Shown in pieces: positions 17,763-34,370 of a stretch of DNA of 64,000 bases (its first letter is position 1; every line of letters begins with the position of its first letter). A program made the position numbers and the translations under genes. Below the pieces are notes generated by a model that made no database searches, was not told the DNA's origin, and saw only the letters and a list, made by a program, of their open reading frames with translations. The DNA is from Oscillospiraceae bacterium (GTDB taxonomy: Bacteria > Bacillota > Clostridia > Oscillospirales > Oscillospiraceae). The stretch lies in the NCBI GenBank assembly GCA_017624715.1, contig JAGAMN010000043.1:43689-107688 (forward strand), in the 5' to 3' direction.

Positions 17763-17838
<76 letters not shown>

Positions 17839-17843
17839 CAAAA

Positions 17844-17878
17844 AACCGCTTAAATCGCAAGATTTAAGCGGTTTTTCT
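17844..17878 (+). terminator. Terminator after tRNA-Thr
   Basis: ACCGCTTAAATC pairs with GATTTAAGCGGT around a GCAA tetraloop, followed by TTTTCTTT. It ends the tRNA transcript and lies just inside the island, so it was brought by the element. Confidence 0.9.
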
Positions 17879-17982
17879 TTGCTTCTACGAACTTTTACGG
17901 GCAAAAACTTGAGGGCGAGATGACCTCGTTCCCAGATTTTGCGCCTTTTTCCAACTACCGCACCAACTTTTTGGTGCTTTGT

Positions 17983-18022
17983 AATGCCGAAAGCCCTTGT
18001 GCCGCAATAGGTTTTCGGCATT
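17983..18022. terminator. Hairpin after integrase gene
   Basis: ATGCCGAAA and TTTTCGGCAT form an imperfect hairpin 15 bases past the end of the leftward integrase gene. The flanking sequence is moderately A/T-rich, so it may end the integrase transcript. Confidence 0.45.
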
Positions 18023-18037
18023 TCTGTTTACCAACTT

Positions 18038-19342
18038 TTATCCAACTTCTTTGGCTTTGGACGTATAACGGCGCTCGACAGCGTCTGTCGCCGCATGAAT
18101 TGTCTGACGTCCTTTGATGTAGTGCTTGACGCTTGTCGACATCTGGGCATGTCCTCCGGCATCCATCACTGCTTTGAGGTCTTTGGTTACATCGTACATA
18201 TCGGTCAATACAGTCGTCCGAAACCGGATCGGTGTGATATTTTCCTCAAAGCCAGTATCCTTCTGAATGCGTTGACACATTCTGCGCACAACGGTATAAG
18301 AAAGAGGTTTTTTTCCTCCAAAAACAAATTCGTCTGCCGGTGTCTCTGGAATATGCGCCAAGGCGATAGCGGCCAATCCGATAGTACGACGACTTACAGC
18401 ATTCTTGGTATCCTTAATTTCCGGCTGATTGCGGTCAGGATGCGTCACCGCCCTGCGGATGGTGATTTCCTTATCAATGCGGTTAATATCTGCTCCCTTC
18501 AGACCCAATCCCTCTTCCAAACGCAACGGATGCAGAGCCATGACCGCGAGAAACGCCCGGTCACGGTTGTTTTTCACATCCTCCAGATGTTCGATCAAAT
18601 ACTCCATTTGCTCGACGCTGTAAGGCGGTGTGGCCTTGCTGGCGTCACCAACAACTTTGACCTTGCGGGATTTCACAGGATTCGCATCAATCAGCTTGTC
18701 TTCCAAAGCTGCCTCTAAAATTTGATTCAGGACCGTCCTGGTCTTATCTTTCGTGGCTTTGGCCACATGCATTTTATTGAACATCTGCTGCACATGGTCC
18801 GAGGTGATATCCTCCACGGCCAGTTCCCCAAAGGTGGGGATCAGATACTTTTCAATCTGGCGTCGATAAGTTACTGCTGTAACGGTGGCGATGTTGGGCA
18901 GGGAATAAGTGTTGAACCAATTCCACGCATACTCGGAAAAGGGATGCTTGCTTTTTTGCTGGACGCTGCCTGTCAAAAGATTTGCGACTTTATCCGCAAA
19001 TTCCTGAGCAGTCTTGGCAGTTACCCAGCACTTTTTGCCGTTAATCATAACGGCTTGATTGATTCTGTTTGCCATATCAGATTCTCCTTCCGATAATGGC
19101 ATAAGATCCGCTTCTGTTGAATTGTCAAGATGCATCTTCGTGGATGCATCATAACACAAGTGGGTTTGCTTTTCAACATAGTTTGTTAAATCTGATTTGC
19201 GTACGAGTTTGGTTTCTCCGATTGCCACATATGTAATTTCTCGATTTTTGATCAGTTCCTCCACGACAGAAGCGGATACTCGTAACGCTTCTGCGGCTTC
19301 CGGCACTGTCATCAGATCCGGGAAAGCCTCAAATTGTTTCAT
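18038..19342 (-). CDS. Tyrosine integrase with fused excisionase-like HTH
   Basis: 434 residues from ATG 19342, which has AAGGAGG 8 bases upstream. Residues 1-60 (MTVPEAAEALRVSASVVEEL) are an excisionase/MerR-type helix-turn-helix. The integrase part then has an N-terminal SAM-like domain (about 150-240) and a catalytic domain with Arg in HPLRLEEGLGL, Lys in IKDTKNAVSRR, Arg in PIRFRTTVLTD, and His/Tyr in GGHAQMSTSVKHY. The first His of HxxR is Thr here. A second start at 19075 (MANRINQ) has its own AAGGAGA 7 bases upstream, so integrase alone may also be made. Lying beside tRNA-Thr, it is the likely recombinase of the island. Confidence 0.87.
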   Translation of the reverse strand: MKQFEAFPDLMTVPEAAEALRVSASVVEELIKNREITYVAIGETKLVRKSDLTNYVEKQTHLCYDASTKMHLDNSTEADLMPLSEGESDMANRINQAVMINGKKCWVTAKTAQEFADKVANLLTGSVQQKSKHPFSEYAWNWFNTYSLPNIATVTAVTYRRQIEKYLIPTFGELAVEDITSDHVQQMFNKMHVAKATKDKTRTVLNQILEAALEDKLIDANPVKSRKVKVVGDASKATPPYSVEQMEYLIEHLEDVKNNRDRAFLAVMALHPLRLEEGLGLKGADINRIDKEITIRRAVTHPDRNQPEIKDTKNAVSRRTIGLAAIALAHIPETPADEFVFGGKKPLSYTVVRRMCQRIQKDTGFEENITPIRFRTTVLTDMYDVTKDLKAVMDAGGHAQMSTSVKHYIKGRQTIHAATDAVERRYTSKAKEVG

Positions 19343-19559
19343 AGTATCCACCTCCTTGGTTGGATCGTTTGATGTGTTTACTTCCCACCGACTCCGCTGC
19401 GGCCACGAAGCAGGCTCACTTTTATTATGCGCACAACGGGAATTCACAACAAAAAACAAAGTAGAGGCTTTGGCAAAATAAAAGGCGACACCTTGGTGTC
19501 GCACCGCATTTGGTTGGTTTGAGTTAAATTGATTATGAAGGAAAACGAGGGAAAAACTA

Positions 19560-19788
19560 GGGTTCCCGAAAGAAAAAAGTTTGAAAACCCTAGCTGAATC
19601 AATAAAAGTACGAACATTTTTGCAGAATTTGATTTTTAGGAGGGGGGTTCCCGGGAACCCGGCCCCCTTTAAGAAGATAATTTGATAAGATATTCGGAAC
19701 CTCCCGATATACTACCGCCGTTACCATGAAATTGGTTGCGGAACCCTATTTCATTTTTTCGGGAACCCTAAATGGGGGGTCGGAACCC
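19560..19788. repeat. Cluster of GGAACCC motifs in both orientations
   Basis: Seven copies or near-copies of GGAACCC/GGGTTCC fall in 230 bases: 19560, 19586 (partial), 19645-19660 (two copies fused as a perfect 16-base palindrome), 19696, 19740, 19761 and 19782. The stretch has no gene and lies upstream of the leftward integrase. Such iteron-like spacing is typical of binding sites for a replication initiator, an integration-excision factor or a repressor. No initiator gene is recognisable nearby. Confidence 0.6.
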
Positions 19789-20689
19789 TCTTTTTCAGCG
19801 GATTTTGCGAAAATTGTATTAACATAAATAAGAGAAAGCAAAAATACCGGATAAACATAAAATTAATTTACCTGTCATACAGGCTAAAAGAGCAAAACAA
19901 TAGGTGCAGACTTTCATCTTTTTGAAAAGATATGAGAAAACAGGGCAACGCAAAACCTCTCATGATTGTTGATGATACAAGAAAAAAGATGAGAAAATAT
20001 GAGATAAAGAAGCGAAGTCTTTTTCTCATCCTATCCACCACATTAGAAAGCAAAGAGTGTGGGCTTGCAATCGAGCAATATACGAATAGATGTGCTTGCT
20101 TTGCTTTGAGTTCAATGATGGAATACGAGAAAAAATGAAATGAAACATCTCGTCTTGATCTCGCTACATCATAGCAATGCCTTTACCTCTTTTTCGCCAC
20201 TATACCGATTGTTTGTTTTGATCTTTGATCTGGCCTTTTCATCCGTTTTATCTTCTTAGTCTTAATATGAGATAAAGTACGAAGTTGGCCTTCCCATCAC
20301 ACTTTTCTGTCTTTTAATACGAACAGCGATCTGTTTACAATCGAGCAATGCACGAAAAGCGGTCTGTACATTGCTGGGTGAGTGAAAGATATACCAGACA
20401 GAATGCGAAACGGAATCTCTGATCATAAATATGAAAAAAGATAGAAAGATATAGGCGATTATTTGGTGCCGCGAAATTTGGGTCTTTAAAATCCACCAAA
20501 AAACAGAATCCAAAATCCCACAGACACTAAATAGGAGCGCAGAGACTCTAGGCAACCAAAAATCCAGTTATGTCCGTGAACGCCATTTTCGCCCCACGGA
20601 TATGTTTCGCTAATCAACCAAAATGCAAGCCGCCTACAAAAACAGGCGGCTTGCTGTGCTATGATATTTGATTGAGTTCTAGACATTTG
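19789..20689. other. Gene-free AT-rich stretch with short repeats
   Basis: About 900 bases without a convincing gene. A 12-base direct repeat CAATCGAGCAAT occurs at 20068 and 20338, each followed by xxACGAAxAG, and variants of ATGAGA(A/T)AA recur near 19930, 19989, 20001 and 20266. A leftward open frame at 20555-20262 (97 codons) ends in residues resembling a winged-helix tip (NVQTAFRALLD and GRPTSYF), so it may be the remains of a replication-initiator or regulator gene. A short hairpin near 20624-20650 (GCAAGCCGCC and GGCGGCTTGC) lies downstream of the hypothetical gene at 20690 on the minus strand. Confidence 0.4.
20624..20653 (-). terminator. Terminator-like hairpin after hypothetical gene
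   Basis: GCAAGCCGCC and GGCGGCTTGC flank TACAAAAACA, giving a 10-base stem about 40 bases beyond the stop of the leftward gene at 20690. On the minus strand it is followed by ATTTTGG, so it may end that transcript. Confidence 0.5.
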
Positions 20690-21370
20690 TTATCTCACGA
20701 AAATTTCCTGGCTAATTTTGTTGTAGTCAATGCTATAATCGCTCTGCATGGCATCCACGCCAGCTTGATAGGTGCTAAACTCATCCACCAGCATATACAG
20801 CCGTGAATGGATCTCGCCGTTTTCGGTCTTGTAAATCATACCAGGGACGCCTCCGTCGTCTACCTGGTAGTCTACCCAACCGTTATCGGAGTGAACACGG
20901 CAGAGGCCGCCAAATTGGTAGCGAGCAAAACGGAAAAAGCGGCCCCTATACAACAGCACCTGGTGCACATCTGCGGTATCAGCAGATGCCAGCATGGTGC
21001 AGCCGAATTTATCGGTATAGCTCCACTGGGCCTCATCCAGCAGATAGGCGGACCGGCACAGTTCCTTAGCCGGGATCAGCAAGGGTTCGACGTTGGCGCC
21101 CACATGATGCAGTGCCATTTTATCCCCCTCCTGCCAAGCCTCCCAGGCGGCGATGGTGCTTTCATAGTAGTGGCGGTTCCATTCATTCTGGTCCAGGCTG
21201 TTGATCAGCTTTCCGATCTCTTCCAACGTGCCACAGTAAGTGCGCACTACAAACTCTTCCTCAGGACGCATCATCAAGTCGAGCTTGATAATGTAATACT
21301 TGTCGATTATCAATTCGGGGGTGTCTTCAAATGCAAATTCGAAGACCTTGTGGTTTTTCTGTTCGGTCAT
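20690..21370 (-). CDS. Hypothetical protein
   Basis: 226 residues of unknown function. It is an acidic soluble protein rich in aromatic residues, without a signal peptide, membrane segment or recognisable catalytic motif. Segments such as RFFRFARYQFGGLCRVH and DDGGVPGMIYKTENGEIHSRLY look like a compact beta-rich fold. ATG 21370 is preferred because GGAGG lies 8 bases upstream; the first Met at 21385 overlaps that site. It is transcribed leftwards towards the gene-free repeat region and is probably monocistronic. Similar cargo proteins are common in clostridial mobile elements, but no function can be named. Confidence 0.65.
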   Translation of the reverse strand: MTEQKNHKVFEFAFEDTPELIIDKYYIIKLDLMMRPEEEFVVRTYCGTLEEIGKLINSLDQNEWNRHYYESTIAAWEAWQEGDKMALHHVGANVEPLLIPAKELCRSAYLLDEAQWSYTDKFGCTMLASADTADVHQVLLYRGRFFRFARYQFGGLCRVHSDNGWVDYQVDDGGVPGMIYKTENGEIHSRLYMLVDEFSTYQAGVDAMQSDYSIDYNKISQEIFVR

Positions 21371-21518
21371 TTTTTGTTCCTCCATGTAATAAATGTTTTG
21401 ATTTTGGGTGTGGGGATTGCGATATTTGCTCCTTTCCTGGTATCAAAGCAAAACATCGTGCAGGTGGATACCTACACGATGTACATGGATGTTATGTACA
21501 ACCGCCGGAAACATCCCC

Positions 21519-21640
21519 TTGAAAACCAATTGTAAAAAGGGTATAATATCCCCGACGGCGCGGCTATACCGCTATGTAGGTGCTCACTCACCTTCGTAGG
21601 TGTACAGAGGTTGCCCCCTCTGTACACTGCCGTTGTTTTG
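21519..21640 (+). ncRNA. Candidate small RNA with promoter and terminator
   Basis: TTGAAA at 21519 and TATAAT at 21542 are 17 bases apart. About 50 bases downstream a strong hairpin (GTGTACAGAGG at 21600 and its complement ending at 21627) is followed by a T-rich tract. Nothing between encodes a plausible protein. A transcript of roughly 90 bases is predicted. Just upstream, 21451-21480 holds another hairpin (CATCGTG...CACGATG). The target is unknown; it lies between two divergent island genes. Confidence 0.5.
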
Positions 21641-21660
21641 TTTTCTGTGGCTATTATAGC

Positions 21661-21740
21661 ATATGTGCGGACACATATCAACCTGGCTTTTTCACTAAAT
21701 TATCGTAGCTGTTTTTGTGCAATATATGGGGACACATATT
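21661..21740. promoter_or_regulatory. Pair of palindromic operator-like sites
   Basis: A perfect palindrome ATATGTG-CGGA-CACATAT (21661-21678) and a near-palindrome AATATATG-GGGA-CACATATT (21721-21740) share GGACACATAT. They lie 57-120 bases before the ribbon-helix-helix gene. Such proteins often autoregulate through repeated short palindromes, so these are likely its operators; this is inference. Confidence 0.55.
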
Positions 21741-21796
21741 GTTGATTTACTATTTGAGGTAATGTATACTAATATCATTAAAGGAGTGGATTACCT

Positions 21797-22015
21797 ATGG
21801 CGCAAACCGAAGCACAATTGCGGGCATCAAAAAAATATCATCAAAAATTCGATGATCTTCGGATCCGTGTCCCGGCAGGCGAAAAAGCCGATATTGATTC
21901 GCATGCGCAAGCAATGGGTGAGTCAACCAATGCTTTTGTTTGTCGAGCCATTAGGGAAACCATTGCGAGAGATGATGCTACGGGCAAGGCAAGACCTGAA
22001 CGCAACACAAAATGA
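21797..22015 (+). CDS. Ribbon-helix-helix (Arc-like) protein
   Basis: 72 residues. DLRIRVPAGEKADIDSHAQAMGESTNAFVCRAIRETI matches the beta-strand, helix, helix pattern of the Arc/CopG family, which binds DNA as a dimer through the strand. AAAGGAG lies 10 bases before the ATG. Two palindromes sharing GGACACATAT lie upstream and are candidate operators. It has no toxin partner downstream, so it may be a stand-alone regulator of island genes or of copy number. Family assignment is fairly sure, role is not. Confidence 0.75.
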   Translation: MAQTEAQLRASKKYHQKFDDLRIRVPAGEKADIDSHAQAMGESTNAFVCRAIRETIARDDATGKARPERNTK

Positions 22016-22126
22016 ACCGGAAGCTATCAGGCGCAATATTATATGCCGCCCAAAGTTTGCGGTAATTGACAAAAATTGTTTGTAGTGCATGATTATCCCA
22101 TCATTTTTTAGAGAGGAGTGAACTTC

Positions 22127-22198
22127 ATGCAGAATCAGATCAAGACCTGCTATTGTGTATATAGTGGAAGTTTCGCTCCTTGTATCATTGCCCGTTGA
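22127..22198 (+). CDS. Putative 23-residue leader peptide
   Basis: A 24-codon frame with a strong GAGAGGAG 8-9 bases before ATG. The peptide starts MQNQIKT and has the cysteine- and tyrosine-containing middle CYCVYSGSF, ending CIIAR. It lies 22 bases before a GC-rich intrinsic terminator, which itself is about 20 bases before the first gene of a five-gene cassette. A TTGACA at 22062 with a weak -10 upstream could start the transcript. The layout matches ribosome-mediated attenuators, where stalling on the leader prevents termination. Translation is not proven. Confidence 0.55.
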   Translation: MQNQIKTCYCVYSGSFAPCIIAR

Positions 22199-22220
22199 TA
22201 TTCGGGATAGGTGCATTAAG

Positions 22221-22253
22221 TTGGCGCAAGCTTCACGCTTGCGCCATTTTTGT
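22221..22253 (+). terminator. Attenuator-type terminator before five-gene cassette
   Basis: TGGCGCAAGC at 22222 pairs with GCTTGCGCCA around TTCAC and is followed by TTTTTGT. It sits between the short leader ORF and the histidine phosphatase start at 22272, so it must be bypassed for the cassette to be expressed from the leader promoter. Confidence 0.8.
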
Positions 22254-22271
22254 ATTTGGGAGAATTAATGT

Positions 22272-22844
22272 ATGATCTGTTATTTGATAAGGCATGGGCA
22301 GGACGACGAGTCCCGGCGCGGCGAATGGAGCACACACCCACTTACAGAAGAGGGGCGCCATCAAGCAGAACTATTGGCGGCAGAAATGTCTCCCCTTGCT
22401 ATTGGCACAATCTATTCCAGTGATTTGTGCCGAGCAATGCAGACAGCGCAGATATTGGGTGATAAGTTATTTTTATCTCCTATTCCTCTCCCCCAATTCA
22501 GGGAAGTCAACAATGGCGATCTCGCCGGAATGAAAAACGACCTTGCATTAGCGCAATATCCCGGATTGTTTTGGAATCAGTTGGAATGGGAAGAAAACTA
22601 TCCAAATGGAGAAAGCCCCCGACAATTTTACGAGCGTATCCATACGGCCTGGTCTGCCTTTACAGAAGAAATCCTTTCTCATAATAAGGATGTAGCACTA
22701 GTCACGCATGGTGGAGTAATTCATGTCATCTGTGATATTCTTGAAAACAAACAATATAGTAATCGGAATAAACACAGGAAAGTAGATCACGCAGAAGTAA
22801 TTACATTGCTCTATCAAAACGGTGTATGGAAAGAATCGGAATAA
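22272..22844 (+). CDS. Histidine phosphatase family protein
   Basis: 190 residues of the phosphoglycerate mutase-like superfamily. LIRHGQDDE at the N-terminus gives the phospho-accepting histidine and RHG core, SSDLCRAMQTA the second arginine, the glutamate lies in FREVNNGDL, and VTHGGVIHV gives the second histidine. These enzymes dephosphorylate small molecules or proteins in the cytoplasm. It is the first gene of a co-directional cassette with an APH-like kinase, HD hydrolase, methyltransferase and P-loop kinase. A leader ORF plus terminator upstream points to attenuation control. The ATG at 22272 has GGGAG about 9 bases upstream. Confidence 0.85.
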   Translation: MICYLIRHGQDDESRRGEWSTHPLTEEGRHQAELLAAEMSPLAIGTIYSSDLCRAMQTAQILGDKLFLSPIPLPQFREVNNGDLAGMKNDLALAQYPGLFWNQLEWEENYPNGESPRQFYERIHTAWSAFTEEILSHNKDVALVTHGGVIHVICDILENKQYSNRNKHRKVDHAEVITLLYQNGVWKESE

Positions 22845-22871
22845 TCTCTACTAGCACAAAAGGAGTACATA

Positions 22872-23753
22872 ATGTCAGTTTACAAAACCATCGTTTCCCG
22901 CGGTTCAATCGATAAAGGTTGGTCGGGAGATCAGAAATACTGTGCCGTCACATCAGACGGGTCTAAGTATCTGCTTCGTATTTCGTCCATAGATCGTTTG
23001 GAGCGCAAGCGCCGGGAATATGAAAAGATGAGCAAAGTGGCACAGTTGGGGATCCCTATGTGTCTGCCAGTAGAATTTGGCACCTGCGACGAGGGTGCTT
23101 ATTCTATCCAGAGCTGGATCGATGGTGAGGATGCAGAAGAAAAGATTATGGCTATGGATTCAGCAGAGCAGTATCGCTATGGTTTGGATGCAGGAAGAAT
23201 CCTTGCGAAGATCCACACCATCCCGGCTCCGGAGAACGCACCGGACTGGGAAACTCGATTCAACGCCAAGATTGACCGCAAGATTGCCATGTATGAAAAC
23301 TGCGAACTGAAGTATGAAAGCGGTAGCGATGCCTTCCTGAAATACATCGCGGAAAACCGCCATCTGTTGCATGGCAGACCCCAAAGCTATCAGCACGGCG
23401 ATTATCACATCGGCAACATGATGATAGACCGTAACGGAGTACTGACCATCATCGACTTTGACCGGGATGATTTTGGCGATCCCTGGGAGGAATTTAACCG
23501 GATCGTTTGGTGCGCCCAAGCTGCCCCTGCCTTTGCATCCGGTATGGTGGATGGTTATTTTGGCGGCAAAATTCCTATGGATTTCTGGCGGTTGCTGGCA
23601 CTGTATATCTGCTCTAACACCCTCAGCTCCCTTCCCTGGGCGATTCCATTTGGGGATAAAGAAATACAAGTGATGTGCCAGCAGGCCGCACAGGTGTTGC
23701 AGTGGTACGACGGAATGAAAAATGTGGTACCTAGTTGGTACCAACCTAAATAA
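22872..23753 (+). CDS. Aminoglycoside phosphotransferase-like kinase
   Basis: 293 residues of the APH/choline kinase-like fold. QSYQHGDYHIGNMMI contains the catalytic HGDYHxxN loop and LTIIDFDRDDFGDPWEE the metal-binding DFD motif. The N-terminal lobe has KYLLRIS for the ATP-binding lysine. Members phosphorylate antibiotics such as aminoglycosides or macrolides, or sugars and amines. It has an AAAGGAG site before ATG and lies 27 bases after the phosphatase gene. Its place in an attenuator-led island cassette suggests drug modification, but the substrate cannot be read from sequence. Confidence 0.82.
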   Translation: MSVYKTIVSRGSIDKGWSGDQKYCAVTSDGSKYLLRISSIDRLERKRREYEKMSKVAQLGIPMCLPVEFGTCDEGAYSIQSWIDGEDAEEKIMAMDSAEQYRYGLDAGRILAKIHTIPAPENAPDWETRFNAKIDRKIAMYENCELKYESGSDAFLKYIAENRHLLHGRPQSYQHGDYHIGNMMIDRNGVLTIIDFDRDDFGDPWEEFNRIVWCAQAAPAFASGMVDGYFGGKIPMDFWRLLALYICSNTLSSLPWAIPFGDKEIQVMCQQAAQVLQWYDGMKNVVPSWYQPK

Positions 23754-23766
23754 TGGAGAATCTATT

Positions 23767-24417
23767 ATGAATACAGAAATGATTGCAAAAACAGAAGCCT
23801 TTTTGAAGGATACTTTCGCCGCAAGTACATATCTCCAGAGCCATCCCACAGACCGGGATTACCGTTTGGAGCATTCCTATCGGGTGGCGAATATCGCAAA
23901 GACCATCGCAGAAGCAGAGGGATTTAATGTGACCTATGCCGTGATAGCCGGTCTGCTTCACGATATTGCTTATTGTGAGGAAATGGTAACCCGTGAAGAC
24001 CGGATGAATCATGGTCGCCGCAGCGCATCCATCGCCAGACCTTTTCTCGAAAGTCTGGGCCTGCCTGCTGATGCGGTGAATGAAATCTGCTATGGTATTG
24101 CCATCCATGTGGACGACGAAGCCGACTTTGAATGGGAGCGGACTCCTTTCTGCGAAACTGTCGGTGATGCAGATAATATTGACCGCTTCGATGTTTACCG
24201 TGTCTATGAATCGCTGCAATGGATGCAGTTCAGTGAAATGCCCCTTGAGAAGAAGCAGATCGAAGTGGACAGTATTATGGAAAAGCTGACCCGGTACAAG
24301 GAAATGAAGCTAGGAACCGAAACTGCAAAGAAGCTGTGGCTTCAGCGGCTGGACTATCAGCTCGGTTTTTATGCCAAGCTGAAAGCTCAGTTGGATAGCA
24401 GTACAACAATACGCTAA
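23767..24417 (+). CDS. HD-domain hydrolase
   Basis: 216 residues. LEHSYRVANIAK gives the first metal histidine, GLLHDIAYCEE the HD pair, and HVDDEADFEW with VGDADNIDRFDVYRV the remaining ligands. HD enzymes hydrolyse nucleotides or other phosphate esters. ATG 23767 is preferred because GGAG lies 8 bases upstream; the longer frame starting at 23722 overlaps the APH-like gene. It sits 13 bases after the kinase gene and 15 before the methyltransferase, so co-transcription is very likely. Function within the cassette is unknown. Confidence 0.82.
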   Translation: MNTEMIAKTEAFLKDTFAASTYLQSHPTDRDYRLEHSYRVANIAKTIAEAEGFNVTYAVIAGLLHDIAYCEEMVTREDRMNHGRRSASIARPFLESLGLPADAVNEICYGIAIHVDDEADFEWERTPFCETVGDADNIDRFDVYRVYESLQWMQFSEMPLEKKQIEVDSIMEKLTRYKEMKLGTETAKKLWLQRLDYQLGFYAKLKAQLDSSTTIR

Positions 24418-24432
24418 ACGGAAGTGAGAATA

Positions 24433-25077
24433 ATGGGTAACTATTGGAACGACAATTATTGGCGCAGACATTTGGCAGAACCGGAAAGAATGGACATCTT
24501 TGAGGAACTGTGGATCGGTAAGCACCAAGAATTGATTGATAAACTGAATAAGGGTCATGCACTGGACTTGGGTTGTGGCATTGGTCAGTTCACGGACTAC
24601 TGGATCAATAATGGCTTCCAAGTCACTTCTGCCGATATTTCTGTAAACGCTTTGAACGCACTGAAAGAAAGAACACCGTCTGCAACCACAGTAGAACTCG
24701 ACATGAGCAAGCAGTTGCCCTTTGAGGACGGCACTTTTGATGTGGTATTCGCCAATCTGTCAATCCATTATTTTGACGAGAAAACCACCCTTGCGCTGTC
24801 TGGGGAGATTCGCCGAGTTTTGAAGCCGGGAGGCCTGTTCATCGGTAGTGTTAATTCAAGCGTTGCTTATGAAATCGTCAAAGACAAGGCAAAAGTTCTG
24901 GAAGATAACTACTATCTGATCGGTGAGCGGTACATTCGCCTGTTCGACAGAGTGCAGTTCGACCAGTTCTTCGGCCAGTTCAAAACCATATTGCTAGAAG
25001 AAATCCATACTGTACGATTCAAGAACCAACGCGATCATTGGGAGTTTATCTTCCAAAAGGATGATGGAAAGGACTAA
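24433..25077 (+). CDS. Class I SAM-dependent methyltransferase
   Basis: 214 residues. ALDLGCGIGQFTDYW is the SAM-binding motif I, SADISVNALNALKER the acidic loop II region, and FDVVFANLSIHYFDEK motif IV. RVLKPGGLFIGSVNS is the typical post-motif strand. The family methylates small molecules, proteins or nucleic acids. ATG 24433 follows GGAAGTGAG. It is fourth in the five-gene cassette and its stop lies 2 bases before the next start, implying translational coupling. A resistance or drug-modifying role is possible but unproven. Confidence 0.82.
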   Translation: MGNYWNDNYWRRHLAEPERMDIFEELWIGKHQELIDKLNKGHALDLGCGIGQFTDYWINNGFQVTSADISVNALNALKERTPSATTVELDMSKQLPFEDGTFDVVFANLSIHYFDEKTTLALSGEIRRVLKPGGLFIGSVNSSVAYEIVKDKAKVLEDNYYLIGERYIRLFDRVQFDQFFGQFKTILLEEIHTVRFKNQRDHWEFIFQKDDGKD

Positions 25078-25079
25078 TT

Positions 25080-25514
25080 ATGGTCATCGGAATATTTGGT
25101 GAAAGTTGTACCGGTAAGTCTACTCTCGCTGAAAAGATTGCCGCCAGCTTTCCTTGTGAAGTATTTACCGGCAAGGATTATCTGCGCCTTGCTAAGAATG
25201 AGAATATCGCCAAGGTGATATTCCAAAAGAAACTGACCGCCGCAGTCACCGGCGAAAATATCATTTATGTGATCTCGGAGAAGGAACACCTTCCGCTACT
25301 GCCGGATGGAGCGTTTCGTATCCTTGTAACAGCAGATCTGGATTTGATCAAGTCTCGGTTCGCCCAACGGATGCGTGGAACTCTGCCTGCCCCTGTGGCC
25401 GTTATGTTGGAAAAGAAGCACGGCTCTTTCGACAATATTCGACACGATATTCACGTAATCTCCGGCGAAACGGATCTGGACGAGGTTTGCAAGAAGATTA
25501 TAGCGAGACTATGA
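25080..25514 (+). CDS. Small P-loop kinase-like ATPase
   Basis: 144 residues. GIFGESCTGKSTLAEKIA is a clear Walker A at residues 3-20. ILVTADLDLIKSRFAQRMRG matches the LID/arginine region of nucleoside- or nucleotide-kinase-like proteins. It is shorter than adenylate kinases and lacks an obvious substrate motif. It starts 2 bases after the methyltransferase stop and ends the cassette. Phosphorylation of a small molecule is the simplest guess; the partner enzymes (phosphatase, APH-like kinase, HD hydrolase, methyltransferase) suggest a joint modification pathway or resistance. Confidence 0.7.
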   Translation: MVIGIFGESCTGKSTLAEKIAASFPCEVFTGKDYLRLAKNENIAKVIFQKKLTAAVTGENIIYVISEKEHLPLLPDGAFRILVTADLDLIKSRFAQRMRGTLPAPVAVMLEKKHGSFDNIRHDIHVISGETDLDEVCKKIIARL

Positions 25515-25610
25515 TTTGTTGTGGCAAACAAGCTTGGCAAAGGTCGTGAAGCTTGAAATCTGCTCGGTTTAGTTGAGAATACGAAAACGGCTCAGCAAGG
25601 AGTAAAAGAT

Positions 25611-28563
25611 ATGATAAGAAAACTATGGAATAAAATATCCCCACCGAATCCTAATATTAAAAAGTAGCAGGACACTTTAGGAATTACAGTTAAAGAGGCA
25701 AAGGAAACAGATGCCTTGATTCGTTCAACAATAGGTCCTCTAGAGGATGATATCGCATCTACAACTAAGCGAATATCGAAACTCATTAAGAGCTACACAG
25801 AAAGACTACCTCAAGATGAATGTGCCCTAATATGCGACGAGCTCACTAGCTACTATATGAAACGATATAAGGATTGGAAGAATGGCGAAGATACATTTTG
25901 CGTCATAGCATATATCTTCACATTTTTTAGTTTAGTCATTGACAGCATCGACACTTTTGATTGGCTTAAGGGTATTCTGCACAATTTTTCAAATGAAACC
26001 CACGTGATCAGCAGCGCAATGCTTGTATTAGCAGTTCTTTCTGTTTTAGGCGGAATTGCAATTACTGCGAAGGTTCGAGGAACAGGGAGCTTGCCTGCGT
26101 GGTTTGCTATGGCGAACAAATCGCTCCCGACACTTACCATATTGGCATATTGGGGATACTATTGCCTAAAACATGGATATACATTGGATAACAGCAATGT
26201 TTATTACGTTCACTTTGCAGCCGTACCGTATCTATACTTAGCTATTAGCGCGTTGATTATCATTCCTAAACTTGTCAAATTCAAGCATGCAAAACGGATT
26301 ATCGATGACGATGATTCGAAAATCGATTCAGGTGATATGGCGGCAGAGAATGTGTTTCATTCAGATAAACCCATTTCTTCGGTTTCGGACGATCTATTGA
26401 AGAGGGGCGGCTTTGCGAAACTCCTTGCTGAAACTGTCATGAGGCTTGATAAGTCGGACACTTTTACTGTTGGTGTTTTTGGAAAATGGGGTAGCGGTAA
26501 GACATCCATCGTGAAAATGATGCTTCAAGAACTAAGAAAGCAACAGTTATCGTTACCTGAAGAAGAGAAAACTATTGTTGTACATTTTGAACCATGGAAT
26601 TTCACAGATACCAATCAGTTGCTAAACCAGTTTTTTTGCCAGATTGGCAAATGAGTTTCGGAGCAAAGGCGACAAGGGGCTAAAAACTATTGGCGATGCT
26701 TTAGAAAAATACTCTGACGCTTTTTCTCTTGCTGAACTAATTCCCGAAGTAGGCTTTGCAGGGAATGTCATTTCCTTCCTGGGTAAAAGCGGTGCAAAGG
26801 CAGCAGGAAAGTTTTTGAAGAAACGAGTAGATTCCAGTGATGTGCAACAACAAAAAGAATATGTAATTAGCCTGCTCAAAAAGCAACCGTGCAAAATCCT
26901 GGTTATTATCGATGATATTGATCGTTTAAGCAATGAACAAATCCGTCATGTTTTTCAGTTAGTTACATCGGTCGCCAAATTCCCTAATACAATCTATATG
27001 TTGGTTTTTGACAAGGATATTGTAGTTAGGGCACTGGAGCGAGTCCAAGAAGGTAGTGGCGAGGACTATCTAGAGAAAATCATCCAGATGCCAATCCAAA
27101 TCCCCGATATTCAAAGATCTGCACTGAGGCAAGTGTTGTTCAACAGACTTGATGAGATAATAACACGTCACAGTGATGTCAATTGCGTAGACGCACATTG
27201 GCAGAACCTCTATAATTCGTGTGTGGATCCGTTCGTAAATCACATTCGTGATGTTAACCGCCTTTGTAACGCTATTGAGTTCAAACTCTCCGCAATTTCT
27301 GGCGAAGTTGATTTCGCCGACATGGTTGCGATTACTGCCTTGGAGATGGGGATTCCTCCTGTGTATGAATGGATTAAGGTAAACAAGACTGCTTTAACTG
27401 GAGAATTTGATTTTAGCGTAAGAGACCGAAAACCAGAGGAGTGGTGCAAATTTTACAAGGAGCAAATAGAGGCAATCTTAGCTGAGCGCCAAAGCGATGC
27501 ACCTGTCTGCGGGAACGCAGAATTCGCGCTGAAGTGTTTGGCACAAATCTTCCCGCACTTCGGCAGAAAGATTGGAAAGTATTATGAGTCCTTCACACAT
27601 CTATCCCTACGCAAAAATAACCAAGTTGCTCATCCAGATAAGTTTGATAGATACTTCCATTTAACCTTGGATTATATTGGTTTCAGAAGAATAGATGTAA
27701 CGTCTGTTCTTCAAATAATGAACAGCGCAGAAGTCTGCGAATTCATATTGCAGAAAGACAAAGAGAATGCAAGCTACGAACTTTTGGAAGAAATAAGAGC
27801 GGAAGTACAAGAAATTCCTGCAGAACGAGCGAAAATTTTAATCGATGCGCTACTGAAAGCCGGAAGCCAGTTGGATGATAAATCAGGAAGAAGCCTGCTT
27901 TCTTTAAGATCTCAGGATATTGCAGAGTATATCATTTATGATTTGTTTGAGCGCATCCCTGTTCAAGAACGGCAACAATACATTATTGATATAGTTAACT
28001 TTGCCGATTGCGAATGTCTAGCAACGCTTTCTGGGATTATTAACATGCTTGAATTAGCATATGGTCGGCTGGCTGCAGAGGGGCAGGAACGCAGCGAGTT
28101 TACGAAATTTCTAAGCTTAGAGGGGTTGCTTGCACTTGAGACTGCTTTTGCTGACCGGGCGAAAGAGTTGATGAAAGGCCGAAGCTTGTTTGCTTTTCAC
28201 AGATGGAGAATGATCTTGCATCTCTTAGAAAACTTTGATGCCAATTTTATATCAGAATATATGCCTCAGGAACTACTGCACGATGAGAGCATACTGAGAT
28301 ATATTGAAGGTTCCGTTTCGAAATGGATTGGTTCCGTGACATCCTATGAAGTAAGCAATGACTATGAGAAATATTTATCAAAGGATCGGGTGCTTAGCGC
28401 AATTAACAATCAGAGGCAGAATCGTAATCTATATTCACTGCCTCAGGAAGTGCAGGTAGCTAGTGTTGCATTCTATTTGCATGAAAACGAGGACTGTACA
28501 CATCGTCATAGTTTGACCAGCAAAAGAATCACCGATACTCTAGAGCCTTGGAGTAATATTTGA
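25611..28563 (+). pseudogene. KAP-family P-loop NTPase, interrupted by stop and frameshift
   Basis: The natural start is ATG 25611 with AAGGAG 8-9 bases upstream, but codon 19 is TAG (25665-25667). The same frame then continues with two pairs of membrane segments (about 25900-26270) and the Walker A FGKWGSGKTSIV near 26480. At a seven-T run near 26631-26637 one base must be dropped to enter the second frame (LNQFFA then RLANEFRSKGDKG), which carries Walker B ILVIIDDIDRLSNEQ and runs to 28563. Repaired, it would be about 983 residues, typical of KAP NTPases with membrane insertions, a family found in antiphage systems. It is either a recent pseudogene or a switchable gene. Confidence 0.8.
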
Positions 28564-28582
28564 CCATACTTGGTTGACATAC

Positions 28583-28618
28583 GCAAACTCCCCGGAGATG
28601 CGCTCCGGGGAGTTTGCT
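28583..28618. terminator. Strong hairpin between convergent genes
   Basis: GCAAACTCCCCGGAG and its complement form a 15-base stem around ATGCG between the KAP gene and the convergent ABC exporter gene. There is no clear T run, but the stem is very stable and sits where a two-way terminator is expected. Confidence 0.65.
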
Positions 28619-28700
28619 ATCTTGCATACTTAGAACAATCACTATAGTCTAGGCGGACTCCTTCTGTGCCTAGGTTGTAACATAGGTAGTCGGAGCAAAA

Positions 28701-30506
28701 TTATGCAAGAATCTTCGCGGTGGTTTCGTCTTCGTACTGGCGGGTGTACAGTTCGTAATAATAGCCGTAAAGCTTCAGCAGCTCAGAGTGGGTACCTTGC
28801 TCCACGATCCGGCCATTTTTGACTACCAAGATCATGTCGGCGTTCCGTACGGTAGAAAGTCGGTGGGCGATCATCAGGCAGGTTCGGCCTGCGGTAACAC
28901 CTTCCAGTGCAGATTGGATCTTAGCCTCGGTAAGGGTGTCCACGGATGCAGTAGCCTCGTCCAGAATCAAGATCTTCGGGTCTGCCAAAATGGCCCGTGC
29001 AAAAGAAATCAGCTGCTTTTCACCGGTGGAGAGCAGGTCACCTCCCTCACCCACATCTGTATCCAAGCCCTTTTCCAGATGGGCGATGACATCCTCCGCG
29101 GAAACGGCGCGGATCGCCTGCCAAATTTGATACTCTGTTGCATTGGGATTGCCCATCAGCAGGTTTTCCCGTACCGTGCCTGAGAACAGATGAGGCGTTT
29201 GCAGCACATAGCCGATAGAAGAATGGAGCCAAAGCTGGCTGCGCTCCCGCGCATCAGCGCCGTCAATCAGCACCTGACCCTGGGTAGGCTCGTAGAACCG
29301 GCATACCAAGTTGACCAAGGTGGATTTGCCCGCACCGGTTTCACCGACAATAGCAAGATGAGAACCAAAGGGGACTTTCAAAGAGAAATGCTCCAAAACC
29401 GTTTCGTCACCATCGGGATACTGAAAAGTCACATCCTTGAATTCAATGTCACCTCGCAGTTCTTCCCAGTTCTCTTTTTTTGGATTGAGCATATCGCCGT
29501 ACTTTTCCACCACCTCCGGCGTGTCCACCACATCGGATTTTACCGCCAGCAAATCTGTGAAACGCTCAATGTTGACTTGGGTGGTAATCAGATCGGAAAT
29601 AATGTCCACCAGCCACCGCAGGGGCTCCATCATGCCCTGCGCGTAGGACATAAAGACAGAGAAAGTACCCAGTTCTTCTGTGGCGATATAGCCGCCCTTC
29701 CACAGCACTATGGCCAGGGCAACACTGGATGCCAGATTCATCGTACCGGCAAACAAGCCCCGAAGTCGGGAAGCCTGGACGCTCTTTTTGCGCATGTTCT
29801 GGGTTTCCTCTGTAAAACGGGACTCGATCTTCTCCTCAATGCCCAGAGATTTAATGGTTTTGGCGCCGGTGATGCCCTCGTTGAAATTGCTGGTGATTTG
29901 GGAGTTGATTTCCCGCACCTCTCGATTAACACCGATCAGCCGCTTCTGGAAAATGGCATAAAGCACCGTCAACAGCGGCAGGATGGACAGAACCATCGCC
30001 GCCAGCTTCGGATTCAAAACGATCATCACCACAATCGCGCCGATCAGGTAGCTCATACGCCATACGCAGTCTACCAGTGTCCAGGACACCAAACTGCCGA
30101 TGCGGGAGGTGTCGCTCATCAGGCGGGCGTGGATGTAACCAACGCTGTTTTGGTTGAAATACGAGAAGGACAGGGTCTGCAGATGGTTGAAGCCCAGCTG
30201 CCGCAATTCCCGGTTGGTGCGCATTTCGATGATAATGGCCAAAGCGCAGGAAATGTAGTTGGATACGGCCGCAACCAAAATGGTCAGCAGGTAAAGCACC
30301 ACGAAGACCGCAACGGTATCGAATACGCCCAGCCCTACATAATGATCCAGGGCGTACCTCTGGAACAGAGGCAGGATGATGTCCGTTAAGCTTCCTGTCA
30401 GGCCGAAGAAAACCATGGCGGTAATCGGCTTTTTCAGCTTGGAAAGGTAGGGAGTAATCCTGCCAATCCCAAAGAATTTTAGATGTTTGTTCTTTTGCTT
30501 TGGCAT
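28701..30506 (-). CDS. Heterodimeric ABC exporter subunit (consensus site partner)
   Basis: 601 residues: six membrane segments in the first 310 residues, then an ATPase domain with Walker A GETGAGKST, signature LSTGEKQLISFARA and Walker B ILILDEATASVD with the catalytic glutamate. It overlaps the stop of the upstream exporter gene by one base (TAATG), so translation is coupled. The pair resembles BmrCD/LmrCD-type multidrug exporters, in which one subunit has a degenerate ATP site; this one keeps Glu after Walker B, while the LSTGE signature differs from LSGGQ. It probably exports drugs or peptides. The leader ORF and terminator upstream of the operon support drug-inducible control. Confidence 0.88.
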   Translation of the reverse strand: MPKQKNKHLKFFGIGRITPYLSKLKKPITAMVFFGLTGSLTDIILPLFQRYALDHYVGLGVFDTVAVFVVLYLLTILVAAVSNYISCALAIIIEMRTNRELRQLGFNHLQTLSFSYFNQNSVGYIHARLMSDTSRIGSLVSWTLVDCVWRMSYLIGAIVVMIVLNPKLAAMVLSILPLLTVLYAIFQKRLIGVNREVREINSQITSNFNEGITGAKTIKSLGIEEKIESRFTEETQNMRKKSVQASRLRGLFAGTMNLASSVALAIVLWKGGYIATEELGTFSVFMSYAQGMMEPLRWLVDIISDLITTQVNIERFTDLLAVKSDVVDTPEVVEKYGDMLNPKKENWEELRGDIEFKDVTFQYPDGDETVLEHFSLKVPFGSHLAIVGETGAGKSTLVNLVCRFYEPTQGQVLIDGADARERSQLWLHSSIGYVLQTPHLFSGTVRENLLMGNPNATEYQIWQAIRAVSAEDVIAHLEKGLDTDVGEGGDLLSTGEKQLISFARAILADPKILILDEATASVDTLTEAKIQSALEGVTAGRTCLMIAHRLSTVRNADMILVVKNGRIVEQGTHSELLKLYGYYYELYTRQYEDETTAKILA

Positions 30507-32311
30507 TACTCGGTCACCTCCTGAATGCCGCTTTGGGCTTCGTAGATTTTCTGATAGATACCTCTGGCGGTTTTCAGTTCGTCGTGGGTTCCTTCTTCTG
30601 CAATGCGTCCGCCATCCAGCACAATGATTTTGTCGGCGGCGGAAAGGGTAGTAATTCTGTGGGAAATCAGGATCACACTGGCTTTGCCGAAGCGCTGCTG
30701 AATAGACTTACGAATCTTGGCATCTGTTTGAGTATCCACGGCAGACAGAGAATCGTCAAAGATCAAAATGGGGGTATCATTGACCAGCATACGGGCAATG
30801 GCGGTGCGCTGCTTTTGTCCGCCGGAAAGGGTAACGCCTCGTTCACCTACCATAGTATCGTAACCGGCGGTGAAGGACGTAATGGATTCGTCCAAGGCGG
30901 CAGCCTGAGCCGCAGCACGGATCGCCTCCATATCCAGTTCGGGTGATGCGATACCGATGTTTTCTGCAATGGTGCGAGAGAACAGATAAGGCTCCTGCAG
31001 CACCATGCCGATATTGCGCCGCAGATGAGCGGTACGAATCTGGCGAATGTCTGTGCCGCCGATGGTAATTCTTCCGCAACCCTCCTCCAGAGGATACAGC
31101 TTATCCAGAAGCAGCATCAATGTGGATTTTCCGCTGCCAGTACCACCCAAAATGCCCAAGGTGGTTCCTGCTTGCATAGTGAAATGAATATCGTGGAGAA
31201 TTTCGGGGCTGTTTTCATAGGCAAAGCTGACATGTTCAAAACAGATGTCGCCGTCCATAGGCGCATCCACGGCATCCGGTGCATCCTGCTCCACGGGAGA
31301 ATTCATAATGTATGCCACCCGGTCGATGGATACGCCCGCTTTGCTCAGCTCGGAGATCATTCGACCCAGCTGGCGGATGGGCCACACCATCATGGAGTTG
31401 TAGGAAATAAAGGCAATGTATTCACCACTGCGCAGATTTCCACGGATGCAAAAGTACGCGCCGAAAATCACAACAAGCATGATCTGAACGCCGGAAAGAA
31501 TATCCGAAATACTCCAAAACCGGGACAAGGTTTTGCCCATCTTCTCCCACAGAGAAGTATAGTGGTCGTTCTGTTTTCCAAACTTCTCGATCTCAGAGCG
31601 CTCCTGACCAAAGGCACGAACCACCCGAACACCGGTCAGATTTTCCTGCGCCATAGCAGAAAGCTTGCCCTCGCTTTCGTCGCAGGTTTCAAACCCGTCA
31701 TGGACCTGATTGTGGAAGTGGAAGGAATACACGATGATGATCGGGGTGGGGATCAATGCAATCAGCGTCAGCAAAGGGTGCATAGAGAGCATAAAGGTGA
31801 TGGATAGAATGAGCAATAACGCGATGCGGAATATGGCGGTCAGCTGCTCGGACAAAAAGTTTTTGGTGGTGTCAATATCCGAGGTGCAGCGCTGAATGAT
31901 GTCGCCGGTGCGATTCTTCATATGCCAGGAGAAAGGCAAGTGCTGGATGTGGGAAAACAGCTGATCCCGCATGGTCTTTACCAGAGTTTCCGATGCTTTG
32001 GTATTGTACACACGGAAGGCATACTGAGATACCACCTGTACCAACGCAACTGCCAGTACAGCCAGAGCCATGATCCAAAGATGTTGACCCAGGTAGGCAA
32101 AACCGCCAATGCGGTCTACCAATTCCATTACAAAGGCCGGGAAGTCTCCTTCTTCGCCGCCCAGAGCACAGTCTACAGCGGCACGGATGATTTGGGGCTG
32201 CAGCATATCCGCCAGAGCGGTAATGCCGGCAGCTAAAATTGTAATTAGAAAATAACGCTTGGCACCTTTCAAGAAGCGCCACAGCAGGGAAATCGTTTGC
32301 TTTTTCTTCAT
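30506..32311 (-). CDS. Heterodimeric ABC exporter subunit (degenerate Walker B)
   Basis: 601 residues from ATG 32311, with GGAG 7 bases upstream; a longer frame from 32341 lacks a site. An N-terminal six-helix domain is followed by an ATPase with Walker A GGTGSGKST, signature LSGGQKQRTAIAR and Walker B ILIFDDSLSAVD. The residue after the Walker B aspartate is Asp instead of Glu, as in the degenerate subunit of BmrC/LmrC-type heterodimers. It is first of a two-gene operon. The upstream region holds a consensus promoter, a 19-codon leader frame and an intrinsic terminator, so expression is likely controlled by ribosome-mediated attenuation. Confidence 0.88.
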   Translation of the reverse strand: MKKKQTISLLWRFLKGAKRYFLITILAAGITALADMLQPQIIRAAVDCALGGEEGDFPAFVMELVDRIGGFAYLGQHLWIMALAVLAVALVQVVSQYAFRVYNTKASETLVKTMRDQLFSHIQHLPFSWHMKNRTGDIIQRCTSDIDTTKNFLSEQLTAIFRIALLLILSITFMLSMHPLLTLIALIPTPIIIVYSFHFHNQVHDGFETCDESEGKLSAMAQENLTGVRVVRAFGQERSEIEKFGKQNDHYTSLWEKMGKTLSRFWSISDILSGVQIMLVVIFGAYFCIRGNLRSGEYIAFISYNSMMVWPIRQLGRMISELSKAGVSIDRVAYIMNSPVEQDAPDAVDAPMDGDICFEHVSFAYENSPEILHDIHFTMQAGTTLGILGGTGSGKSTLMLLLDKLYPLEEGCGRITIGGTDIRQIRTAHLRRNIGMVLQEPYLFSRTIAENIGIASPELDMEAIRAAAQAAALDESITSFTAGYDTMVGERGVTLSGGQKQRTAIARMLVNDTPILIFDDSLSAVDTQTDAKIRKSIQQRFGKASVILISHRITTLSAADKIIVLDGGRIAEEGTHDELKTARGIYQKIYEAQSGIQEVTE

Positions 32312-32342
32312 TTTTGTTCTCCATTTCTTAATTTTGGGCATG

Positions 32343-32374
32343 AAAAAAGGGCGCAGGCGGAAGCCTGCACCCTT
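32343..32374 (-). terminator. Attenuator terminator before ABC exporter operon
   Basis: On the minus strand GGGTGCAGGC pairs with GCCTGCGCCC around TTCC and is followed by TTTTTT. It lies between the leader ORF and the first exporter gene. CTTCCG in its apex is complementary to CGGAAG inside the leader ORF (near 32427), offering an alternative anti-terminating pairing. Confidence 0.82.
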
Positions 32375-32397
32375 AAAAAACGCAGCAAAGCAAAAGC

Positions 32398-32457
32398 CTA
32401 TACTGACAGCAAAGGAGCAACACTTCCGGTATGGATCATAGTAACATTCATCAACAT
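32398..32457 (-). CDS. Leader peptide of ABC exporter operon (putative)
   Basis: A 19-residue frame, MLMNVTMIHTGSVAPLLSV, with AAAGGAG 9 bases before ATG, ending 24 bases before the terminator hairpin. It is located about 30 bases after a consensus promoter. This matches the bmrB-bmrCD arrangement of Bacillus subtilis, where antibiotic-stalled ribosomes on a leader ORF allow read-through into the exporter genes. The peptide sequence itself is not recognised, and translation is inferred from the ribosome binding site. Confidence 0.65.
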   Translation of the reverse strand: MLMNVTMIHTGSVAPLLSV

Positions 32458-32491
32458 ATCTAATTGCTCCTTTCTTTCATAATTTACCAGT

Positions 32492-32520
32492 ATCATAGCA
32501 CCGCCTTACCGCGCTGTCAA
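32492..32520 (-). promoter_or_regulatory. Promoter of ABC exporter operon
   Basis: On the minus strand TTGACA (32515-32520) and TATGAT (32492-32497) are separated by 17 bases. The leader ORF begins about 35 bases downstream. Promoter strength fits constitutive transcription controlled by attenuation. Confidence 0.8.
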
Positions 32521-32633
32521 GGGATTGTTTGTGACCGTTACGGTTCGTAACAGGATTGTTTATGGTATTTTATTGATTTTTTATAAAAAGTTCGGTAAGA
32601 TGGAAAAAGTTGAGCCGAGAGGAGGTAGAGAAA

Positions 32634-33206
32634 ATGACTCTGGGCGAAAAAATCAGAGAAGCCAGACGAAAATGCGGATTGTCCCAAGAGCAGCTGGCGG
32701 AAAAAATGTCTGTATCCCGATCTGCGATTGCCAAATGGGAAACGAATAAAGGCTTGCCGGATGTGGGGAACCTGAAGGTCTTGGCACGGCTTCTGAATGT
32801 CAGCGTAGACCATCTGTTGGATGAGGCGGAGACTGTAGACGAACTGGTCATTAGGGAACCGTATAACCTTTCTGCTTACGGCTATGGCTGTAATAAAGTC
32901 AAGAAAGACCGGGTTGTACGGGACAAATTCCCAGATGCAACAATCTATCCTTTGCTTGGACAGCAGGATGTCGCCAGTCTGGAACTACAGGTGGACAACA
33001 CACCGGACTGTCGGTCAAATCCGTTGGATCGGGTGAAGAATACAGACAAAGCATTTTATTTGATAGAAAAGGACGATCAGAAATTACTTGTGATGGTGAC
33101 CGACGTCTTCATAGAAATCCGTCCCCTGGAACAGTCTTTGGAAAGAAACAGTTTTCGTGTTGGTGGCTGGAACTTTATAAAATGCAATTACGAGATTGGA
33201 AAGTGA
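32634..33206 (+). CDS. XRE-family transcriptional regulator
   Basis: 190 residues. An N-terminal Cro/C1 helix-turn-helix spans about residues 3-60 (LGEKIREARRKCGLSQEQL, SRSAIAKWETNKG). The C-terminal 120 residues have a beta-rich form without a known name. AGGAGG lies 9 bases before ATG 32634; an earlier Met at 32610 overlaps that site. It is divergent from the ABC exporter operon with 320 bases between, and may regulate it. Its own terminator follows at 33215. Confidence 0.82.
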   Translation: MTLGEKIREARRKCGLSQEQLAEKMSVSRSAIAKWETNKGLPDVGNLKVLARLLNVSVDHLLDEAETVDELVIREPYNLSAYGYGCNKVKKDRVVRDKFPDATIYPLLGQQDVASLELQVDNTPDCRSNPLDRVKNTDKAFYLIEKDDQKLLVMVTDVFIEIRPLEQSLERNSFRVGGWNFIKCNYEIGK

Positions 33207-33213
33207 TACAGCA

Positions 33214-33242
33214 TACGGCGGAGAATTTCTCCGCCGTTTTAG
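33214..33242 (+). terminator. Terminator after XRE regulator
   Basis: ACGGCGGAGA and TCTCCGCCGT flank a three-base loop and are followed by TTTTAG, eight bases past the regulator stop. Confidence 0.8.
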
Positions 33243-33394
33243 TCTATAAAAGACTTAGCCAAAGCTGGGCTGTTTGATAGCATGAGCGCTGGGCACGGAT
33301 TTCTATTGTTCCGCTAAATTACAGAATATTATTCCGTTAATGTTGCTATTATTCCGCAAATGTGGTATACTTCCATCAGAAGGAAGTGACAGCT

Positions 33395-34288: not shown

Positions 34289-34370
34289 TTTGAATTACCT
34301 TTTTAGCATAGGCGTTTGAAAAGGTGTGCAGCTACTCGCTTAGCAAAAAACACAGCAACTGAGGTGTACA

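Follow-up and report, generated by a model that had tools for sequence, protein, structure and literature searches.

We describe a leader-terminator element and the five genes behind it in a 64,000-nucleotide (nt) stretch of DNA from an Oscillospiraceae bacterium (assembly GCA_017624715.1, contig JAGAMN010000043.1, positions 43,689 to 107,688 of the forward strand), hereafter called the window. A preliminary description of this DNA had reported a 23-codon leader open reading frame (ORF) with a ribosome binding site, an intrinsic terminator and five closely spaced genes, and all of these are confirmed (Table 1). The start of the leader ORF is preceded by AGAGAGGAGTGAACTTC, the terminator begins 23 nt past the leader stop codon with a stem of 10 pairs, 7 of them G-C, directly followed by TTTTTG, and the five genes run on the same strand as the leader to position 25514 with intergenic gaps of 27, 13, 15 and 2 nt. 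Upstream lies a putative promoter that aligns with TTGACA...TATGAT at locus L122 and TTGACA...TATAAT at locus L124. A loose -10 pattern present in 39 of 49 upstream regions, counted without a control, is given no weight. A lone terminator would be weak evidence in this region, since the stretch from 20000 to 28000 holds 12 sites that look like terminators, where shuffles average 6.8 (standard deviation 2.8); promoter-like sites in the same scan are not in excess (19 against 15.9 expected). The leader-terminator RNA (22095-22275), in turn, folds better than 200 of 200 dinucleotide shuffles (z -4.4), and given this fold and the homologues present in other genomes we regard the element as more than a chance arrangement. 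An Rfam scan, which covered the 64-kb window, assigned it to no family at the gathering threshold; the only matches were two tRNAs and a flavin mononucleotide (FMN) riboswitch, the latter at 44956-45069 on the minus strand.

Table 1. Features of the attenuated locus and of the island around it, in window coordinates.
Feature	Position	Strand	Remarks
Putative sigma-70 promoter	22066-22093	+	TTGACA, 16 nt, CATGAT
Arm 1, Shine-Dalgarno arm of the leader ORF	22113-22126	+	pairs with arm 2
Leader ORF, MQNQIKTCYCVYSGSFAPCIIAR	22127-22198	+	23 codons plus stop; ATG at 22127, TGA at 22196-22198; homologous leaders elsewhere
Arm 2, within the leader ORF	22167-22181	+	partners: arm 1 or the terminator 5' arm
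Intrinsic terminator	22222-22251	+	stem 22222-22246; 5' arm 22223-22234 is arm 3
Histidine phosphatase (branch 1), CobC/PhoE-like	22272-22844	+	His_Phos_1, E 5.2e-39
APH-fold kinase	22872-23753	+	APH, E 2.7e-35; no named resistance enzyme assignable
HD-domain hydrolase	23767-24417	+	HD, E 4.2e-14
Class I S-adenosylmethionine (SAM) methyltransferase	24433-25077	+	Methyltransf_11, E 2.4e-21
Small P-loop kinase-like protein	25080-25514	+	GESCTGKST; AAA_18 and AAA_33 below threshold; no Pfam family reaches its cut-off
Island end, 3' part of tRNA-Thr	17794-17838	+	45-nt exact repeat
Tyrosine recombinase with N-terminal helix-turn-helix (HTH)	18038-19504	-	adjoins first repeat copy
Paired ATP-binding cassette (ABC) exporter genes	28701-32341	-	behind second attenuator, on the same island
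Second attenuator of the same family, leader MLMNVTMIHTGSVAPLLSV	32339-32475	-	33.3 bits with R1; 84.7 bits with R2 (among R2 training sequences)
Island end, second repeat copy	36378-36422	+	45-nt exact repeat

The element belongs to a conserved family, most members of which were found in one genus. A DNA search of 99 relatives gave matches in four, the genome of the window included: an intact homologue in G004 (preceding a GNAT gene; 68% across leader and terminator), a relic in G451, and in G017 a third non-self match that was left out of the analysis. A pattern search of 136 genus genomes matched four and added G510, and a covariance model (R1) built from the four founding sequences (window, G004, the relic and G510) then returned 35 genus matches at E <= 0.001. 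A second model (R2), built from 28 members and with the terminator stem as its only structure, found 47 elements in 42 of the 136 genus genomes, the 28 training members being counted among the 47. At the order level R1 matched 3 of 295 genomes, of which two belong to the genus; the third (L193), the sole order-level match outside it, was set aside because no leader was apparent on reading. R2 at the family level matched 5 of 300 genomes, three of them in other genera, with clear leaders in L240 and L242 and a diverged one in L241. Both leader and terminator, on whose conservation the preliminary description had let its proposal of leader-plus-terminator control depend, are present in homologous loci.

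Three sets of members were used in what follows. The set of 35 comprises 40 R1 matches minus the relic (L123), L181, whose leader frame continues into the next gene, and L182, L187 and L190, in which no leader was found; the non-redundant set holds 17 members with less than 70% identity; and the set of nine comprises 13 R2-found loci minus four near-identical ones (L235, L237-L239), its identity to the 35 being unchecked and L233/L234 and L236/L243 being mutually similar. Each of the 35 members has a Shine-Dalgarno sequence and a leader ORF 19-29 codons long, matches without a usable leader ORF having been removed beforehand; in L173, L185 and L188 an in-frame GTG upstream of the likelier start was used. 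Thirty of the 35 leaders contain a recurring Ala-Pro, with GCT as the Ala codon in 29 of the 30. Since this codon is almost invariant and since arm pairing is retained in leaders without Ala-Pro (e.g., L234, L241), the constraint on the leader looks to be mainly on the RNA; for the same reasons Ala-Pro as a peptide stalling motif was put aside, though without being excluded.

This constraint is visible in how the leader pairs with its own Shine-Dalgarno region. Arm 1 pairs with arm 2 in the window, and over the 35 members the true partners reach -16.8 kcal/mol against -14.0 kcal/mol for re-paired ones, a value attained in 0 of 5000 permutations; the corresponding counts are 0 of 10000 for the 17 non-redundant members and 1 of 10000 for the nine found with R2, a model that does not include the arm 1:2 helix. 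Codon shuffles of the 35 leaders matched the observed arm 1:2 fit in 0 of 100 cases.

We then folded the transcript up to arm 3 by partition function for the 35 members in three states, namely free, with a ribosome at the start codon and with a ribosome at the stop codon. For the free transcript the expected numbers of pairs are 12.6 for arm 1:2 and 3.3 for arm 2:3; a ribosome on the start codon raises the latter to 8.3, and one at the stop lowers it to 0.15. Codon-shuffled leaders gave 5.05 pairs for arm 1:2 and, for arm 2:3, 4.2 (free), 5.5 (start) and 3.3 (stop), so that the observed switch of 5.0 compares with a shuffle maximum of 2.2 and is reached by 0 of 30 shuffles (0 of 60 in the non-redundant set). 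Placing a ribosome at the start codon is predicted to add at least three arm 2:3 pairs in 25 of the 35 members, against 8.4 on average in shuffles. For the window itself, a ribosome on codons 1-3 gives about 8 arm 2:3 pairs, on codon 4 only 1.4, and further along almost none, such that the full antiterminator is predicted only with a ribosome on codons 1-3; the family mean declines more gradually, starting at 8.3, with about 4 when the ribosome is on codons 6-8 and near 1 shortly before the stop. Folding by ribosome position therefore predicts that the element senses ribosomes detained at initiation or close to it.

The leader, the terminator, the co-varying arms 1 and 2, the conserved family and its gene contexts can be read directly from the DNA, and from here on we infer the switching itself. 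RNA polymerase would start just upstream, with arm 1 emerging first. If no ribosome were loaded, arm 1 would pair with arm 2, the terminator (arms 3:4) would form and transcription would stop; under free translation, ribosomes would reach the stop codon and cover arm 2, again with termination as the outcome. A ribosome arrested on the first few leader codons, by contrast, would cover arm 1 and leave arm 2 to pair with arm 3, in which case the terminator could not close and the operon would be transcribed. We consider it likely that the element is a ribosome-mediated transcription attenuator of the BmrB kind and that it senses the arrest of ribosomes close to initiation. As in BmrB-type systems, a translatable short leader ORF with a Shine-Dalgarno sequence and a terminator stand ahead of the first structural gene, and the computed arm 1:2 helix would take the part of the anti-antiterminator. 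The control by leader and terminator that had been suggested for this operon is thus backed by a conserved element, a co-varying helix and a predicted antiterminator. Given that retapamulin, lincomycin and tetracycline have been reported to arrest ribosomes at the start codons of other upstream ORFs, ribosome inhibitors, antibiotics among them, are the most likely inducers of the operon, and across the family the switch probably turns on exporter and mixed enzyme genes when ribosomes stall.

Several observations weigh against this interpretation. The antiterminator that would overlap the terminator is switch-specific by folding, but its co-variation is weak, arm 2 and the terminator 5' arm being matched by 29 of 5000 permutations over the 35 members and by 577 of 10000 over the 17 non-redundant ones, and permutations ignore relatedness and phylogeny, so that all such counts are not probabilities. 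In two of the four founders (G004 and the relic) arm 2 fits the terminator 3' arm better than the 5' arm, although a pairing with the 3' arm is not supported over the 35 members, where it shows no co-variation (3710 of 5000). The 35 members were found with R1, which models arm 1:2, so that the set is biased towards that pairing, and the nine later finds were still chosen by a sequence profile of the same family. Ten of the 35 members gain fewer than three arm 2:3 pairs, with no rise in L160, L163, L171 and L176, and equilibrium folding ignores the kinetics of transcription. As to the genes, none of the five is a recognised resistance gene among the curated NCBIfam families, the best score being 28.6 bits for APH_3p against a cut-off of 205. 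Finally, R2 at E<=0.5 found no element in 18 fetched regions with HD or P-loop homologues (some cut by contig ends), in which R1 gave one weak match of 20.3 bits, and these genes therefore do not need the switch; nine further P-loop places lie outside the 18 regions.

Ribosome-mediated attenuation before ABC exporters is already known from BmrB-BmrCD (PMC4191407), and sensing of start-codon arrest from toiL and, by citation in the same source, from vmlR and vga(A) (PMC12121999). According to the available part of its description, the bmrB leader of bmrCD in Bacillus subtilis has a short translated leader, a terminator, an antiterminator and an anti-antiterminator, ABC exporter genes downstream and a logic by which slowed leader translation leads to read-through; our family shares the short leader ORF, the terminator and the exporter genes (here the first gene at 29 of 47 loci), and by prediction would share the two further pairings and the logic. 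The bmrB leader is induced by chloramphenicol, erythromycin and lincomycin and not by kanamycin or gentamicin (PMC4191407). On the other hand, the bmrB terminator lies inside the 162-bp leader gene (PMC4191407) whereas that of the window follows the leader stop, the anti-antiterminator is here the leader's own Shine-Dalgarno arm, and the present family also heads mosaic enzyme operons; the likeness drawn here is one of architecture. With toiL, vmlR and vga(A), as far as the accessible text goes, the element would share an arrest at the start codon of an upstream ORF that alters RNA pairing and can be induced by several drug classes, while toiL targets a downstream Shine-Dalgarno sequence and Rho instead of an intrinsic terminator (PMC12121999). 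The tlrB (yxjB) leader of B. subtilis likewise combines a leader peptide with a terminator before a methyltransferase gene (in its case for an rRNA methyltransferase), but in the portion of the report at hand no overlapping antiterminator is identified and the stalled ribosome itself blocks the hairpin (PMC6851288). The patAB attenuator of Streptococcus pneumoniae has a predicted terminator, antiterminator and anti-antiterminator before ABC exporter genes, yet a leader peptide is not described for it in the available excerpt (PMC4319486). Two surveys of bacterial RNA motifs describe no such element in their accessible parts. As far as literature and Rfam searches show, with subscription papers mostly uncovered, the novelty lies in the element family itself and in its placement before enzyme genes that are shuffled.

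What stands behind the switch varies. At the 47 elements the first gene is an ABC exporter in 29 cases (called by tblastn within 400 nt of the element at 29 of 53 loci examined, then mapped to the 47), another gene in 17, and one element is the relic. The 17 non-exporter loci mostly head small-molecule enzymes: Pfam names the first or second gene at 12 of them (window, L122, L128, L159, L160, L163, L165, L167, L170, L176, L186 and L236), with GNAT, S66 peptidase, nucleoside phosphorylase, methyltransferase, GrpB and histidine phosphatase among the families, and similarity identifies two more (L162, metallophosphoesterase; L181, P-loop). On reading, L161 resembles L160 and L243 resembles L236; L169 received no name from the family searches. 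L181 (G468:C40) has a damaged leader and an intact-looking terminator, directly followed by its P-loop homologue (84%). The relic (L123, 7830-7970) lies between ftsK/spoIIIE-like and coaBC-like genes (named on reading), and its leader start codon is altered.

The preliminary description had further taken the five genes of the window for a small-molecule modification or resistance pathway, and as a conserved pathway this is not supported. APH relatives were sought in pattern-matched stretches, one genome per species, and among the best 80 of 278 APH loci (60-86% identity; many cut by contig ends) all five genes occur together in none, with an HD gene adjacent in one (L032) and a P-loop gene nearby in one (L027). 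HD matches are found in 12 and P-loop matches in 21 of the 136 genus genomes, the window's own included in both, and a second P-loop copy in the window's own genome (L026/L109, G000:C5:69941-70363; 69%) has no R1 match nearby. Four of the five genes turn up elsewhere in different orders and with different partners, at 59-86% identity; the search for the histidine phosphatase covered the genome of the window and the fetched loci. For example, HD is followed by methyltransferase in G505, a methyltransferase homologue (68%) adjoins an HD homologue at L278, and G529 has the order YcaQ-like, NUDIX, HD, P-loop. Behind the switch itself we find metallophosphoesterase, GNAT, APH and HD in G032, an array with an HD homologue at 59% in G010, and thirteen ORFs with APH among them in G510, where a single switch precedes a long same-strand array (L128, 6385-15975 of G510:C2).

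Comparison by sequence with solved structures relates the phosphatase to CobC/PhoE-type phosphatases, the HD protein to 2pq7, the methyltransferase to generic methyltransferases and the APH protein to two weak matches, while the P-loop protein has no solved relative at E<=0.1. The enzymes of the operon probably modify or clear ribosome-inhibiting compounds, the substrates we infer for them, or repair damage. The DNA of 21700-25600 had no matches in plasmid and phage records, and for the P-loop protein eight pattern-matched stretches of viral contigs yielded no confirmed relative and plasmids none; plasmid APH matches (24-52% identity, 11 records) had different neighbours in the two regions opened and were set aside.

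Integron gene-cassette arrays also consist of unrelated small genes on the same strand, in variable order behind one control region. The arrays described here share these traits, but inspection by eye of junctions of four gene types, without an attC model, showed no attC-like or other conserved recombination site, and an integron integrase was not sought. A broader reading, possible but in our view less likely than not, is that of an inducible regulon for detoxification, mostly at the level of the genus, that works like a socket. One switch reading start-arrested ribosomes would have reached many loci, among them exporters and islands, and short genes for enzymes (APH, HD, methyltransferase, P-loop kinase, GNAT, NUDIX, phosphorylase, S66 peptidase) would come and go behind it by shuffling; a new small-molecule enzyme would thus come under induction by translation inhibitors as soon as its gene arrived. 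If true, a ribosome-sensing attenuator family in uncultured gut bacteria, without an Rfam match at the window, would join likely drug exporters and uncharacterised enzyme operons in one regulon; it would also offer a sequence handle for translation-inhibitor-responsive genes where resistance family models find nothing, and a test of how moving resistance-like genes acquire regulation.

Other explanations of the element have to be weighed against attenuation by arrested ribosomes. An amino-acid attenuator, whose leader would stall when one charged tRNA is scarce and whose operon would serve metabolism, has the architecture of classic attenuators in its favour, as well as the composition of two of the three S66-peptidase leaders, L160 (2 His, 5 Asn) and L161 (4 His, 4 Asn), against means of 0.44 His and 1.72 Asn in the other 32 members; the third, L165, has 2 His and no Asn and is thus not Asn-rich. 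However, the window leader has no single-residue run, leader sequences vary between loci, and the genes that could be identified code for export or for modification and hydrolysis, not for the synthesis of amino acids, which makes this quite unlikely. We consider it very unlikely that the element is a riboswitch or protein-bound leader with an incidental short ORF: the strong structure (z -4.4) would fit, but no Rfam family reaches its gathering score there, the leader ORF with its Shine-Dalgarno sequence was found in every member tested once matches without a usable one had been removed, and the co-varying helix includes that very Shine-Dalgarno sequence. Nor does an unregulated read-through terminator left over from an upstream unit, highly improbable in our estimate, sit well with the co-variation of arms 1 and 2 or with a family that heads 29 ABC exporter genes, common as terminator-like sites are in this region (12 against 6.8 expected) and even though one copy is a relic (L123). 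The leader of L242, ahead of an S66 (LD-carboxypeptidase) gene, is also rich in His and/or Asn, like those of L160 and L161, and could indicate a different stall signal.

A separate question concerns the five genes, which could form an anti-phage or toxin-linked defence operon and have nothing to do with drug modification. Their neighbours on the island, a PifA-like KAP ATPase and a Fic protein, do match PADLOC candidates; within the operon, though, PADLOC matches the methyltransferase only (mad2, E 9.4e-17, over the methyltransferase fold) and the other four genes not at all at E<=0.001, and homologues of four of the genes share their arrays with genes for GNAT, NUDIX, nucleoside phosphorylase or methyltransferase proteins. 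We therefore regard a defence function as unlikely.

The mobile island in which the preliminary description had placed the operon is borne out by a tyrosine recombinase beside tRNA-Thr and a direct 45-nt repeat of the tRNA 3' end, the hallmarks of a tRNA-targeted integrative element. This element spans 17839-36422 (18584 bases) and carries both attenuated operons, the second being that of the paired exporter genes. In 2-kb windows its G+C content is 39-52% at 18-36 kb against 50-56% in other windows of 12000-44000, with the exception of 39% at 36-38 kb, mostly past the second repeat. A third family element in the same genome (L165, G000:C56) lies ahead of an S66 peptidase gene and of one that, on reading, is HAD-like. 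Both defence candidates lie inside the island: the KAP/PifA-like ATPase (25668-28563) is split over two overlapping frames (25668-26651 and 26644-28563) by a frameshift, an error or decay, and the Fic protein with HTH (33362-34288) matches the PADLOC PDC-S04 and SoFic models.

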